Program-made: the position numbers and the translations under genes
DNA from: Treponemataceae bacterium
GTDB taxonomy: Bacteria > Spirochaetota > Spirochaetia > Treponematales > Treponemataceae
Direction of reading: 5' to 3'
NCBI GenBank assembly: GCA_024685655.1
Contig: JAIKVO010000052.1
Coordinates: 1-41,497, forward strand
DNA: 41,497 nucleotides
In this document: piece after piece, positions 5,905-28,748 of the stretch
Position numbering within the stretch: position 1 is the stretch's first letter
Layout: every line of letters starts with the position of its first letter
The notes under the pieces: generated by a model
The model's input: the letters and a program-made list of their open reading frames with translations, nothing else
Databases searched by the model: none
What the model was told of the DNA's origin: nothing

Positions 5905-6017
5905 TCGATTCAAAATTCAGACGAATTTTGAATCGATTTCCAAACTTACCTCAAAAACCGTAATGCAATGAGGTTTTTGCAAGCCAATTTCAAAAGTTAC
6001 AACTTTTGAAATTGGCT
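5905..6017. repeat. Three consecutive hairpins in a divergent intergenic region
   Basis: TCGATTCAAAATTC-agac-GAATTTTGAATCGA (5905-5936); CAAAAACC...GGTTTTTG (about 5952-5979); AGCCAATTTCAAAAGTT-ac-AACTTTTGAAATTGGCT (5982-6017, 17-bp perfect arms). Confidence 0.85.
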
Positions 6018-16977: not shown

Positions 16978-18333
16978 TTACCGCGGGAAAAACTGCTCAG
17001 AAGCCTGAATTCTTACAAGCTGCACGAAGTCACCGTCATAGTCTTCTGTAAAATCTTCAATCTTAATCTCTTCGCCATCCATGAACACTGCGACAGAAAA
17101 CTTTCCATTCTTATCAAAAGCAGGGAAAAAAGCCGCACATTCATTATACACCACAAATTCCGCCCCGTCATTCACTGTATGACGAATTGCTCCCAAATAG
17201 AACCGACCTGGCTCCGTAGCTGCCAGATAGTAGAAAATCGGCTTCAGAATTGAGATTTTGAAACCATTGCTTTCATAATACGCATCATTGAACGGCACGG
17301 AATTCAACTGAACACCGGATGTCTCATACGTATAATCTCTACCTGAATATATAGACACCATTGCGGCCGCAAGGTTACGAGTCCAATCAAGAGCAAGAGT
17401 CGTATCGTATTTTTTTGCCATTGTGTCAGAAAGACTACCTGACTTAAAAACTTCCGTCTTTTTTATAAGCGGCTCTCTAAGAATACCGCTGCCGGAAAGC
17501 GGTCGTACAAGTCCGTCAACAATCCATTTTACAAAACCCGGACTGCTTACATAAAGCGGATCTTCATTTGAACCTGCAGCAGCAAGAAAAATTCCATCTT
17601 TTATAGTCACAAGGTTTCCAGCTTCATCGTATGCGGCATCCTCAAGGAAATGGAATCGCGGCAAATTATCGCGGATAACACCTGTCATCTGCAGGATATC
17701 GTTGTAAAGACTCGAATAGAACGGCTGACTTGCCCACGGAACAACATAACGCAAAAGAGACAACACATCATCACAACTCATGTCATAAAAATATTCCAGA
17801 GGAATGCCCACAGGAACGTTTTTCGCAGCATACTCGCCAAAAACCATGACATCCGCAAGTGATTTTTCTGCCGGAATGCTGCCGCTTCTTCTGAATTGGA
17901 TGAAAATCTCAGTGTTTACAGTGAAATAATACCGGACGCAAGTGGGCTCACCAGTCTTGGAATTCCTGAAAAGAATCCATGAACCGGGTGATTCTGCCTT
18001 ATACATTTTCCGTTGGATATACTCAACGCCTGAATCTGTATAAAGCTCGACTTTCTCTGTCTTTGCGGGTGCGACAATAATCATACTGTCATTCCCGTAC
18101 TCCTCAAAATGAACTTGAAAAGAATAACCATCGACACTTTCCAACTCCTCATCCTCATATGTTCTCAGAATTGGAATAGGCTGTTCTAACCATGTATCGA
18201 CAATACGGCTTCGAACCTCACTTGACTCAGGGATATCAATGACATCTTGCGCTTCGGCAGCAAAAATGACAAACAGCGACAAAAAAACTGATATGAAAAA
18301 ACTTCTATATTTCCTTTTTCTTTCAAGTCTCAT
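16978..18333 (-). CDS. Hypothetical secreted protein
   Basis: 451 aa with signal peptide ([20 protein letters not shown]); no family recognised; start overlaps the upstream activase stop by 11 bp. Confidence 0.75.
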
Positions 18334-21300
18334 CCGGGTGTTTTCCTAACGGAGCATTAGCCAACAGGAGCTTAAGTCTGTTAAGCTGATTAACTTCACT
18401 AGAGCCTGGGTCATAATCTATTGCAGATATATTGGCCCCTGGGTATCTTCGCCTAAGTTCCTTTATCATGCCTTTACCGGTAACATGGTTAGGCAGACAA
18501 GCGAACGGCTGCACACATGCAATTGACGGAACTCCCTCATTGATGAGCTCCACCATCTCTGCTGTAAGAAACCATCCTTCGCCCGTAATGTTACCAAGTT
18601 GGACAATATCATTTACACCTTTCATCAAATCATAGATTGATGACGGTGGTTCAAAACGACGGCTCTTGCGCAGACACTTCTTGATATACCGGCGGTAAAG
18701 CTCCAACCCCCATACAAGAAGCCGCGCATTACGCTCAGTTTTTTTCGGGAACGCAAGCTTTTCGTGCCGGAAAATACCTGTGGAGAACGTGTAGAAAAGG
18801 AAGTCCGCAAGATCCGGAACAACGCATTCTGCGCCTTCTCGCTCAATAGTGCCAAAAATGTCGTTGTTCGCAGTTGGGTGGAACTTAACAAGAATCTCCC
18901 CGACAACACCGACGCGCGGCTTTTTCACCGGCAAAAGCGGCATACTGTCAAAATCTTTTACAATACCGCGGATGAGGCGGTGATACGTTCCAAGCGTAGG
19001 ATGCTTAAGTTTTGCCTGAATGCGACCGTTCCACTTCTCGTAAAGCGCATTTGCCTCGCCGGGGTTAGCCTCGTACGGGCGCGTGCGGTACAACACGCGC
19101 ATAAGAAGGTCACCGAGCATAACAGCCATAAGCGCGCGGTTAAGCAAGGCAGGCGTAATCTTGAAACCAGGGTTCTTTTCCAAACCGAGGGCAGAAAGCG
19201 AAACAACCGGGATTTTGCTTAAACCAGCGTCGTTCAGCGCGCGCCTGATAAACCCGATATAGTTCGTGGCTCGGCAACCACCGCCTGTCTGCGTAATCAT
19301 AAGGCTTACATGGTCAAGGTCGTATTTACCCGATTTAAGGGCTGCCATCATCTGGCCGGCAACGATAATAGACGGATAGCATGCGTCGTTGTTTACGAAC
19401 TGAAGTCCTGTCTCTACAGCGAGCGCGTCAACGTCCGGCAGAACCTCGAAATTGAAGCCAGAATACTGGAACGCTTTCTGAACAAGCCTGAAATGAATAG
19501 GAGACATCTGAGGCGCGACAATCGTATGCGTTGCCTTCATCTCTTTCGTAAATACCTGACGCGTATATGCGGCAGAACGGATTTCCGGTTTCTGCCGGTT
19601 GCGCTCGCGTTCTTTTACAGCGGCTATAAGGCTTCGGATGCGGATGCGCACCGCACCAAGGTTCGAGCCTTCATCAATCTTAATGAGCGTATACATGCGG
19701 TGCTTTGAGGAAAGGATTTCCTCAACTTGATCGGCGGTAACCGCATCAAGTCCGCATCCGAAGCTCGTAAGCTGGATAAGCTCCAAGTTCGGCATTTCCG
19801 ATGTAAACGCCGCCGCCCGGTAAAGCCTGTTGTGATATGTCCACTGGTCAACAATGCGGAGAGGACGCTCTATAGCACCAAAGCTTGCAACGCTGTCTTC
19901 TGTGAAAACAGCGATACCAAGGCTCGTTATCATTTCAGGAATACCGTGGTTAATTTCAGGATCCAAGTGGTACGGGCGGCCAGAAAGCACTATTCCGTTC
20001 AAGCCACGCCTGATTATAGTCTCAAGGGCTTCCTCACCCTTCGCTTTTACTTCCTGACGGAACTTTTCCTGCTCCGCCCAAGCAGCGTCAACAGCTTTGG
20101 TAATTTCTTCCTGCGAAATATTGAACTTCGGTCCAAGCTCTTCATAAAGACGAACAGCCAGGCGCGGCTTGTCGTAAATCGGCAGGAACGGGTTCATAAA
20201 AGTGATGCCAGAGTCTTGCCGCAGCGCATCAACGTTGTTTCTAAGAACCTCAGGATAACTTGTTACGATAGGACAGTTGTAGTGGTTTCCAGCCCCGGAA
20301 TCTTCCTGCTGCTCGTAAGGAGCACATGGATAGAAAATAAATTTGATGCCCCAGTTAAGCAAAGCCTGAATATGACCGTGCGATATTTTGCCAGGGTAAC
20401 AGACAGATTCAGAAGGAATCGTCTCCAAACCAAGCTCATATACGCTGCGGCTTGAACGCGGAGAAAGCCTGACGCGGAACCCAAGCTCTGTGAAGAAAGT
20501 GAACCACAGTGGGTAGTTTTCGTACATGTTAAGGACTCGCGGAATACCAACATCACCGCGCGGCGCGTCTGCAGCCGCAAGTGGTTTGTAACCGAAAAGC
20601 CGCTTGTATTTCCAGTCAAAAAGGTTCGGAATGTCAGCACGTTCGGCTTTGTCCGCAACAGCGGTTTTCTCGGCATTTCCAGCGTCCACAGTCTTTGCAT
20701 CGCCTTCTTGCTGCTCCGCGCCGCGCTCACAGCGGTTGCCTGTTATAAAGCGGCGTTTTTCGTCACCGGTCGTGAACGTGTTTATCGTAAGAAGACAGTT
20801 GTTCTGGCAGCGTCCGCAACGGCGAAGCTCCAAATCAACATGAAAATCTTCAAGTTCTTTAAGCGTAGCCAATCCTGTTTTAGCGAAACTCCGCACATCC
20901 GGCGGCATTTCGCGCCACTGGTCACGCGCGATAAGGGCAGCTCCGTACGCGCCCATAAGACCCGCCACATCTGGGCGGAAAACGTTTACTCCGGCAATTT
21001 TCTCGAACGCGCGCAAAACGGCGTCATTGTTGAAAGTACCGCCCTGAACGACAACCTTTTTGCCAATATCAGATGCTTTTCTAAGCTTTATAACTTTGAA
21101 AAGCGCGTTTTTGATAACTGAATATGAAAGACCGGCAGATATATCAGCGACAGTCGCACCCTCTTTTTGTGCCTGTTTTACGCGGCTGTTCATAAAGACG
21201 GTGCAGCGGCTTCCCAAATCAATAGGATGCTCGGCAAGCAGAGCCTTTTTGCTGAAGTCCTGAACACTCATACCGAGCGAGCGAGCAAAGTTGTCAAGGA

Positions 21301-22744
21301 AGCTTCCGCAACCAGAAGAACACGCCTCGTTAAGCTGGATATTCGTAATCGCACCGTCTTTCATGCGCAAACACTTCATATCCTGCCCACCGATATCAAG
21401 CAGGAACTCAACGCCCGGAACAAAGAAGTCAGCCGCACGATAATGCGCTATAGTCTCTACTTCACCAGCATCAGCGTTCAGCGCAGCCTGGAACAAAGCC
21501 TCTCCGTAACCTGTGGAAACCGTGCGAGCAATATATACATCAGACGGAAGTTTGTGATACAAGTCCTTAAGAACCCGGACAGCAAGCTCTACAGGGTTTC
21601 CTGCATTCACATCGTAGAAACGCCAAAGAATGCGTCCCCGCTCATCGATAAGAACAGCTTTTGTCGTTGTGGAACCGGCATCGAGGCCAAGGAATACAGC
21701 ACCTTTTGCGTCTTCTATATTTCCAGACGCAGCTTTTTCCTCAGCGTGGCGTTTCTGGAACTCCGCAAGCTCTTCCTCGTTCTTGAAAAGCGGCTCAAGA
21801 CGCTGAACCTCTGTCATCTCCGCGTCCACAAGATTTTTAAGAGCTTCTTTAAATTCCGCGGCTGTACGGAAAACGTCTGTTTCCTCCGACGGATTGATGC
21901 ATGTATACGTCCGCTCGGCAGAGTAAGCCGCTCCTGCCGCGACAAAAAGCTGAGAATCTTCCGGCACAAGAACTGCCTCATCAGGAAGCTTGAGCGTAAC
22001 GATGAACCGATGCCGCAGCTGATCCAAGAAATGAAGAGGACCACCAAGGAAAGCGACATTACCACGAATCGGCTTTCCGCAAGCAAGTCCGGAAATTGTC
22101 TGGCTTACAACAGCCTGGAAAATAGAAGCCGCAATATCCTCGCGACGCGCACCTTCGTTAATCAGTGGCTGAATATCAGTTTTGGCAAAAACACCGCAAC
22201 GTGCCGCTATCGGATAAATCATCGTAGCTCCGGCTGCAAGCGTATTAAGTCCGGATGCGTCAGTCTCAAGAAGAGCCGCCATCTGGTCGATAAAAGCACC
22301 TGTACCTCCGGCACACGTACCGTTCATGCGTTGCTCAACGCCGCCCGTAAAATACGTAATCTTGGCATCTTCTCCGCCGAGCTCTATGACAACATCAGTT
22401 TTCGGAATAATCTTCTGAACAGCAGTCGTTGACGCAACAACTTCCTGTATAAACGGAATAGAAAGCCACTGAGAAACAGCAAGGCCTCCCGAACCTGTAA
22501 CCTTTACACTGACAGTCTGCTTCTCACCATGTTCACATTTTTCCGCAACAGCATCCAAAGCGCGTGTAACAACAGCGATAATCGTGCTACGTATATCCGC
22601 GCGGTGGCGTTCATACTCACTATAAATAACAGAATCGTCATCTGCCAGAACAACAACTTTTACGGTCGTAGAACCTACATCAATTCCCATCCGGACCGGA
22701 ACAATATCTTCTTCATTCTTTTCTTTCAGAACAATCATCTGCAC
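18323..22744 (-). CDS. Acyl-CoA dehydratase activase (two BadF/BcrA-type ASKHA domains + DUF2229 + HgdB-like region)
   Basis: [15 protein letters not shown] and [19 protein letters not shown] phosphate-1 motifs, [19 protein letters not shown] cysteine cluster, 1473 aa. Confidence 0.92.
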
Positions 22745-22875
22745 CTCAGTTTATTGGACAATTCCTGGAGAAAAAATGTTTCACCTCGCAGCATCGCCGG
22801 CAAATCCTCAGCAATCCACTGTCGAAAACTTGGATATAAAACCATATTTGCTGGAAAAAAACAAAAACTCAATTT

Positions 22876-22904
22876 ATTATATATGATTCAGATGTCAATT
22901 ACAA
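22876..22904 (-). promoter_or_regulatory. Candidate sigma-70 promoter for the activase-to-TonB gene run
   Basis: Minus strand TTGTAA-N17-TATAAT about 130 nt upstream of the activase start. Confidence 0.55.
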
Positions 22905-22915
22905 CACAGTGAACG

Positions 22916-23055
22916 GCTCCGGGAATTGTCAACGAAGTGTTTCAATTCCCGGAGCAAAAACAGTCCAGTGGACTGTTTTTAGTGAACTGCCCCAGAGCTA
23001 TGCTCTGGGGGATATATAGGCTTCCGGGGATTGCCAACGAAGTGTTTCAATCCCC
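22916..23055. repeat. Four-hairpin array, two hairpins sharing a conserved loop
   Basis: GCTCCGGGAATTG-tcaacgaagtgttt-CAATTCCCGGAGC (22916-22955); AAAAACAGTCCA-G-TGGACTGTTTTT (22956-22980, also a bidirectional terminator candidate); CCCCAGAGC-tat-GCTCTGGGG (22990-23010); GGGGATTG-ccaacgaagtgttt-CAATCCCC (23026-23055). Confidence 0.9.
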
Positions 23056-23057
23056 TT

Positions 23058-23621
23058 CTAGCAAGCAGAAAGATATCTTTCAGGGCCGGTAACGTAAAGG
23101 TCGTTTCCTTTTGTGTCTATTACGACAGTGAGCGGCATATCTTTCACCTCAAGCTTGCGGACGGCTTCACAGCCCAAGTCCGGCCATGCGATAATCTCTA
23201 CGCTTTTGATGCTTTCTGCCATAAGGGCACCGGCACCGCCAATCGCCCCAAGATACAAAGCTTTATTCTTTACAATGGCATCTTTTACGGCTTGATTGCG
23301 TTTGCCTTTGCCAATCATGATTTTATTGCCAAGGTCAAGCAGAAGCGGACTGTACTTGTCCATTCTGCCGCTCGTTGTCGGTCCGGCGGAGCCGATAACC
23401 TCACCAGCTTTTTCCGGCGTGGGCCCTACGTAGTAAATCGCACTGCCTTTCAGGTCGAACGGTAACGGCTCGCCGCGCTCATACGCTTCAAAAAGCCGCT
23501 TGTGCGCCTGATCGCGTGCTGTGTACACAATTCCCGAAAGAAGAACGGTGTCGCCCGCGCGGAGCGTTTCAAGTTTTTCCATGTCGTCAGAAGAAAATGG
23601 TGTCGTAATTCTATATTCCAT
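23058..23621 (-). CDS. Class I fumarate hydratase / Fe-S hydro-lyase, beta (C-terminal) subunit
   Basis: LRAGDTVLLSGIVYTARDQAHKR, GPTTSGRMD, KNKALYLGAIGGAGAL motifs. Confidence 0.93.
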   Translation of the reverse strand: MEYRITTPFSSDDMEKLETLRAGDTVLLSGIVYTARDQAHKRLFEAYERGEPLPFDLKGSAIYYVGPTPEKAGEVIGSAGPTTSGRMDKYSPLLLDLGNKIMIGKGKRNQAVKDAIVKNKALYLGAIGGAGALMAESIKSVEIIAWPDLGCEAVRKLEVKDMPLTVVIDTKGNDLYVTGPERYLSAC

Positions 23622-28690: not shown

Positions 28691-28748
28691 AAAAAAAGAG
28701 CCAAGCGAGAAAACTCGACGCACCACTTTAAGGCAGCACTCTTGACTC
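28691..28748 (-). terminator. Possible terminator for minus-strand transcript
   Basis: Minus strand GAGTCAAG...CGAG-TTTT-CTCG-CTTGGCTC-TTTTTTT; outer 8-bp stem (one G-U), nested hairpin, T7 tract. Confidence 0.5.

Follow-up and report, generated by a model that had tools for sequence, protein, structure and literature searches.

A hairpin array between fumarase and activase genes of a Treponemataceae bacterium: probably an inserted copy of a dispersed palindromic repeat

The locus and its hairpins

We analysed a stretch of 41,497 nucleotides (the window) from a Treponemataceae bacterium, in which an array of hairpins has genes for the alpha and beta subunits of fumarase and for a CoA-enzyme activase as neighbours. 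The genome of the window is denoted G000, its congeners G001, G002 and G003, and two further genomes of the family G110 and G146. The features of the locus are as follows.

18323..22744, minus strand: CoA enzyme activase (BcrAD_BadFG + DUF2229), downstream neighbour of the array
22871..22904, minus strand: candidate activase promoter sites (TTGACA-16-TAAATT and TTGTAA-17-TATAAT), within sequence that aligns among G000, G001 and G002
22906..23060, no strand: about 155 bp without counterpart at the orthologous junction of two congeners (alignment with the G001 and G002 loci), a probable insertion
22907..23011, plus strand: complete repeat unit of the long-hp1 form (leader CAGTGAACG, hp1, hp2, linker AGTGAACTG, hp3), matching family model R2
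22907..22915, plus strand: leader CAGTGAACG (family consensus TAGGGAGCG)
22916..22955, plus strand: hairpin 1 (hp1; hairpin A), long form, 13 perfect pairs between GCTCCGGGAATTG (22916-22928) and CAATTCCCGGAGC (22943-22955)
22956..22980, no strand: hairpin 2 (hp2), AAAAACAGTCC-AGT-GGACTGTTTTT, with symmetric A5/T5 arms like those of a bidirectional terminator
22981..22989, plus strand: linker AGTGAACTG region (family consensus AGCGAGTCT)
22990..23010, no strand: hairpin 3 (hp3), CCCCAGAGC-TAT-GCTCTGGGG
23023..23055, plus strand: truncated second copy, hp1 alone, 8-bp stem of GGGGATTG (23026-23033) with CAATCCCC (23048-23055), inner sequence unchanged
23058..23621, minus strand: fumarate hydratase beta subunit (PF05683), upstream neighbour of the array

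A preliminary description of this DNA had placed four hairpins in the region 22916-23055, between the fumarase-beta stop and a predicted activase promoter. On re-inspection all four are there, the stop lies at 23058, and minus-strand TTGACA/TTGTAA ... TATAAT sites were found on the other side, in a promoter-like stretch conserved in two relatives (alignment with G001 and G002). Its count of 13 identical bases between two 14-nt loops (hp1 and the truncated copy) was also obtained by us. The hairpins are thus real, but to read them as independent of one another, with a 14-nt loop under selection, is incorrect in detail. Hairpin A has a longer stem than described (13 perfect pairs), and the hp1 "loop" holds a 2-bp mini-hairpin of the GNA type, AC-GAA-GT at 22932-22938, so it is not a plain loop. 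Hairpins 1 to 3 are a single module and the fourth hairpin is an additional, truncated hp1, which is 91% identical to 22918-22950 and matches the hp1 covariance model R1 at 23020-23060 with 50.8 bits. The complete unit matches the covariance model R2 with 69.3 bits (E 2.9e-14, model positions 1-82), a model trained on units picked by hand from several genomes, four of them from G000, with the window unit left out.

The array folds far better than its shuffles, both as RNA (-71.1 kcal/mol versus -38.5, z -7.9) and as DNA (z -10.1), and no shuffle was as good in either case. In the predicted fold, CAGT of the leader pairs with ACTG of the linker and encloses hp1 and hp2; three different complementary leader/linker quartets were seen in six units. 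A closing helix common to all units was considered and rejected, as a perfect leader-linker match exists only in variants of the window's genus and not for the canonical TAGG/GTCT.

A repeat family dispersed in Treponema relatives

The core CAACGAAGTGTTTCAAT has five exact occurrences in the 3.16-Mb G000 assembly and the reversed-pattern control has none, so the genome-wide loop search proposed in the preliminary description does recover further hairpins of this kind. Around these copies and those from relaxed searches of G000, the order TAGGGAGCG, hp1, hp2 (AAAACAGTCCAGTGGACTGTTTT), AGCGAGTCT and hp3 (CCCGGAGAGC-TAT-GCTCGTAGGG) is repeated elsewhere, and the succession hp1, hp2, hp3 is constant across copies and genera. 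R1 identified 17 copies in G000, three in G001, five in G002 and none in 37 other relatives, with stems kept by compensatory changes. Neither outcome that the preliminary description named as refuting, a loop without other hairpins or stems that are not preserved, was thus observed. The long hp1 form of the window was found in three species of the genus and in no others.

The commoner unit is short, about 80 bp (TAGGGAGCG-GCACTGC-GNA-GCAGGGC-AAAAACAGTCCAGTGGACTGTTTTT-AGCGAGTCTC-CGAGCAGC-TAT-GCTGCGAAGG). Units overall range from about 80 to 105 bp, are non-coding, keep the three hairpins in fixed order and have sharp borders (TAGGGAGCG...GCGAAGG or ...GTAGGG). R2, which represents the short form, detected units in 55 of 145 genomes, belonging to 5 of the 20 genera tested, with at least 31 copies each in G000, G110 and G146 (the per-genome counts are lower bounds, 31 candidates having been scored in each genome). 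The repeat is dispersed over the chromosomes of rumen and other Treponema-family bacteria, in dozens of copies. A search with hp2 by itself, which extends further than R1, reached 33 of these 145 genomes, whereas its reversed pattern had no match. The array therefore corresponds to one of the options raised earlier, a repeat family: R1, R2 and the exact core together identify it as a complete unit followed by a truncated second one, both belonging to a dispersed Treponema-family repeat. By an ORF-length proxy, 11 of 104 units lie within a long open reading frame. Three loci in relatives (L227, L228 and L263) have units within long open frames of 686, 608 and 727 codons (ORF length only) and are perhaps translated through. 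Of the matches from a pattern scan of genome contigs, we accept those in RGIG8125 and RUI560, both rumen spirochaete MAGs; the rest look like chance.

At the Rfam gathering threshold there was no match for the repeat, and the sole hit in the window was the unrelated DUF3800-VI RNA (28698-28748, minus strand, 55.7 bits, above its gathering score). Permissive E-values returned weak chance hits only (miRNA MIR949, a Brucella sRNA and CRISPR repeat models). We ruled out that GTTTCAAT/ATTGAAAC represent a CRISPR, a spaced array being absent. The plasmids, phages and viral contigs searched had no match to the repeat, and its exact strings were not found in the open-access literature searched; papers beyond open access may describe the family. 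The repeat family thus appears to be undescribed in Treponema relatives; REPs of Spirochaetota in general have been reported by a REP survey tool (PMC12306157).

One insertion site is orthologous and occupied in two species (C225, locus L034, and C105 of G002, locus L057). The two copies carry different types of hp3, and a compensating pair distinguishes their hp1 stems, which suggests exchange of modules in place.

Presence and absence at the fumarase-activase junction

In a three-way alignment of the MAG assemblies compared at this junction, the array is absent between fumarase-beta and activase of both G001 and G002. The G002 sequence aligns as far as window position 22905 and resumes at 23074; in G002 these two flanks are 8 nt apart. 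In both relatives the fumarase frame ends with TGT-AAT-TGA within the conserved promoter stretch, and in G000 the fumarase end of the array stretch supplies the stop TAG (minus strand, 23058-23060). The absence of the array from the junction of both congeners makes an insertion its most likely origin, and the gain between fumarase-beta and activase most likely followed the split from the two nearest sequenced congeners. The opposite polarity, an ancestral array deleted in both G001 and G002, draws on the fact that three genomes alone give no direction of change; it would need losses that leave an identical, uninterrupted TGT-AAT-TGA junction in both relatives, in a family that is repetitive and patchy elsewhere, and we regard it as very unlikely.

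Judged from presence and absence together with the sharp borders, the repeat is apparently mobile. The window junction is the one clean empty site. At a second occupied locus (C95) the unit is missing in G001 and G002, and the flanking intergenic DNA is also rearranged. The two sides of the window junction share only TTGY, with no clear target-site duplication, and copies in REP loops, read by eye, seem short of one to three loop bases rather than duplicated.

Covariation of the stems

Across 20 aligned hp1 copies, 89.1% of the cells are paired and no slid register comes close; double changes affect 8 of the 15 pairs (28 cells, compared with a shuffled mean of 9.7). The mini-hairpin of hp1 occurs elsewhere as GC-GAA-GC, GC-GCA-GC, GC-GTA-GC and AC-GGA-GT, and it shows A-T/G-C covariation. 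For hp2, 97.5% of the cells are paired and 4 of 11 pairs carry double changes, and for the whole unit this holds for 10 of 24 pairs. The covariation scores of hp1, hp2 and the unit were equalled in none of 500 shuffles.

RNA helices under selection tolerate G-U pairs. In 83 distinct units with 24 pairs each (about 1,900 paired cells), we counted 217 alternative Watson-Crick pairs, 14 G-U pairs and 47 mismatches. The alignment used (A6) was made to follow the structure; such fitting raises the share of paired cells but would not be expected on its own to eliminate G-U. This near absence of G-U against the number of Watson-Crick double changes suggests palindromes kept as DNA rather than as RNA. 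A structured RNA family, whether cis-regulatory or a protein-binding array, could account for the strong RNA fold, the covarying helices and the predicted closing helix. The 14 G-U pairs among about 1,900 paired cells, the lack of an Rfam match and the inconsistent orientation to genes make it highly improbable, and the RNA-protein binding array proposed earlier is accordingly disfavoured by the 14 G-U pairs set against 217 double changes.

The comparison of sequences thus suggests that stem pairing is maintained at the DNA level, which in turn suggests either that folded DNA is used or that quasi-palindromes are corrected by template switching. In the second case, stem complementarity would come from template-switch correction during replication and not from structural selection, a mechanism described for quasi-palindromes in E. 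coli (PMC7202029) and yeast (PMC3820800). Copying one arm in one step predicts what the variable pairs display, namely nearly all Watson-Crick double changes and few G-U or mismatch intermediates. Correction would, however, remove the A-G mismatch of the short hp1 and the internal loop of hp3, both of which persist in many copies and genera and so argue against pure correction; the apical purine-N-A triloops of hp1, an RNA-type loop, are likewise retained in 62 of 75 cases. We consider template switching a serious alternative, although the less probable one.

Nesting within other palindromes

Among 104 distinct units, 29 are enclosed by flanks that form a perfect palindrome of 6 bp or more. 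When the right flanks were shuffled 500 times, such units numbered 4.7 on average and never more than 12; the test is conservative, because REP flanks still pair together, yet dependent on REP abundance. The outer palindromes are mostly of the REP type, for instance GATGCTGAAACA|unit|TTCAGCATGAC and GTCATCCTGAACT|unit|TTCAGGATC, and uninterrupted palindromes of this type (ATGCTGAAACAAGTTCAGCAT, GTCATCCCGAACTTGTTTCGGGATC) adjoin some units. Published insertion sequences also target REPs (PMC1525189). With so many copies in REP hairpin loops, extruded or single-stranded hairpin DNA may be the target or substrate of the element.

In a tRNA cluster of G146 (contig 39, locus L265), a degraded tRNA-like sequence is split by a unit of reduced length, and a second insert-like stretch follows. 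Removing the unit in silico still left no detectable tRNA at this tRNA-like gene.

Search for a mobilising enzyme

The mobiliser survey covered Y1_Tnp, the domain of REP-associated tyrosine transposases (RAYT) and of IS200-type transposases. It was undetected in G000, G001 and G002 and in 12 of the 13 genomes with at least eight units, and its presence was not associated with that of the units (17 of 55 carriers, Fisher p 0.33). As the assemblies are incomplete (G000 is 88% complete), single absences are weak evidence and the pattern across genomes is stronger.

A REP/BIME family mobilised by a RAYT would fit repeats that are palindromic, mostly extragenic, composed of several modules and present in many copies, as well as the 29 units nested in mostly REP-type palindromes, and RAYT-like Y1 genes do exist elsewhere in the bacterial family, one of them in the congener G003. 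Besides the missing association and the absences in G000 and the high-copy genomes, the units have no GTAG or CGTC tag outside a hairpin, and the hairpins flanking the inspected Y1 loci of relatives are unrelated sequences. RAYT mobilisation is therefore decidedly unlikely, and the Y1_Tnp results together with those unrelated flanking hairpins disfavour RAYT/IS200 mobilisation as a whole.

An autonomous element with the right end of the repeat was not found among the 30 of 38 right-end matches inspected in G146; these 30 loci were units, either complete or with internal deletions, or a remnant. A bolder proposal, which we put forward tentatively and consider rather doubtful, is a class of miniature DNA elements that would insert into existing hairpin loops (REP palindromes and possibly a tRNA D-loop), with folded single-stranded or cruciform DNA as target and an enzyme other than Y1/RAYT, and whose copies number 31 or more per genome in some Treponema-family species.

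Possible effects on transcription

A minus-strand fumarase transcript would meet the hairpins directly past its stop codon, and hp2 ends in U5, which makes a terminator or insulator effect plausible. The anatomy of hp2 is that of a terminator on both strands, but its arms are partly AT, and a terminator scan of the region found none. In relatives within the family (L145, L146 and L162), the hp2 core ACAGTCCAGTGGACTGT occurs alone with A/T arms directly downstream of tRNA-Cys genes and looks terminator-like.

A more specific possibility is that selection at this locus produced the array as a terminator, or as an mRNA 3'-end structure, for the fumarase operon, its likeness to other copies reflecting common terminator function. 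The symmetric A5/T5 arms of hp2, the very stable fold of the array, the lone hp2 cores by tRNA-Cys genes and the TTTT that 76 of 90 recognised hp2 copies retain in their 3' arm speak for it. The array is, however, absent at the junction in two congeners, the scan was negative, units show no uniform orientation to genes (17 are convergent and 11 divergent, with 30 and 23 in tandem), and in several hp2 copies the T-tract is broken (TTGTT, TCGTT, TTTCC) while pairing is kept. We judge this explanation unlikely. The multi-hairpin terminator of the preliminary description survives as a possible side effect, in view of the A5/T5 arms and the hp2 cores by tRNA-Cys genes, and is weakened as a function of the family by the mixed orientation and the broken U-tracts.

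Relation to known repeats and overall interpretation

The general kind is already known, REP/BIME, BOX and MITEs being examples of small palindromic repeats interspersed in genomes (PMC3733652, PMC3049150). The repeat is palindromic, dispersed, multi-copy and mostly extragenic, and shares with REP/BIME (PMC3733652) short, modular, mostly intergenic copies whose stems differ in complementary fashion; CGTC REPs, reported from Spirochaetes, are likewise without a dedicated transposase (PMC3733652). Unlike REP/BIME, it has three different hairpins in fixed order (about 80-105 bp) with the ends TAGGGAGCG...GCGAAGG, and many units are nested in REP-like palindromes. The unpaired GTAG/CGTC tag is absent: leaders are TAGGGAGCG and variants, and GTAG occurs only within the hp3 arm of some copies. 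A linked RAYT, typical of GTAG-type REPs, was likewise not detected in G000, G001, G002 and 12 of 13 high-copy genomes.

Like the pneumococcal BOX (boxA-boxB-boxC, PMC3049150), the repeat is a modular, non-coding composite with predicted stem-loops and intergenic scatter, probably non-autonomous and able to affect neighbouring transcripts; by its description BOX differs in its tandem middle module and its phylum, and variation in our repeat concerns hairpin sequence and the hp1/hp3 type. IS1397, IS621, ISPpu9 and others also insert within REP palindromes (PMC1525189), but these are autonomous and encode a transposase, whereas the unit of about 80-105 bp codes for nothing. With MITEs such as RUP (summarised in PMC3049150) the repeat has in common that it is short (<200 bp), non-coding, strongly folded, dispersed, non-autonomous and variable in presence and absence. 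It differs in being GC-rich, and we saw neither terminal inverted repeats joining its ends (TAGGGAGCG and GCGAAGG do not form an inverted pair) nor a consistent target-site duplication, nor a parent IS among the right-end copies inspected in G146. Its three hairpins in constant order, its nesting in palindromes, the absence of a GTAG/CGTC tag and the failure to detect Y1 together set the repeat apart from plain members of REP/BIME, BOX or MITEs.

We think it very probable that the array is an inserted copy of a non-autonomous, non-coding, BIME/MITE-like palindromic repeat of a Treponema-family clade, gained in this lineage. On this interpretation a unit consisting of leader TAGGGAGCG, hp1, hp2, linker AGCGAGTCT and hp3 would have been inserted between fumarase-beta and activase, and the stems of the units would be kept paired as DNA. 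Copies would be spread by a mobilising enzyme, many of them entering REP hairpin loops, with extruded or single-stranded hairpin DNA as the presumed target or substrate. At this locus, hp2 and its neighbours probably keep the fumarase transcript apart from the promoter of the activase, with putative termination or insulation as a by-product.

The family combines hairpins conserved at the DNA level, sharp ends and a preference for the interior of other palindromes, and does so in genomes without a detected REP transposase of the usual type, so that the enzyme behind such repeats becomes a concrete search problem, and its units offer clean presence/absence markers. It also serves as a warning that multi-hairpin arrays with covarying stems in intergenic DNA of spirochaetes are not necessarily riboregulators.

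Other repeats were seen as well. In G000 and its congeners, at least three other dispersed intergenic repeats flank units (for instance stretches that contain CCCGCAACGCC or GGGGAAAGTCTTCCCC; search-query positions 647-689, 1690-1740 and 2161-2203), with matches on many contigs of the genus. Elsewhere in the window, 5905-5936 and 5982-6017 are unusually long perfect palindromes of 14 and 16 bp with 4-nt loops, separated by about 45 bases.
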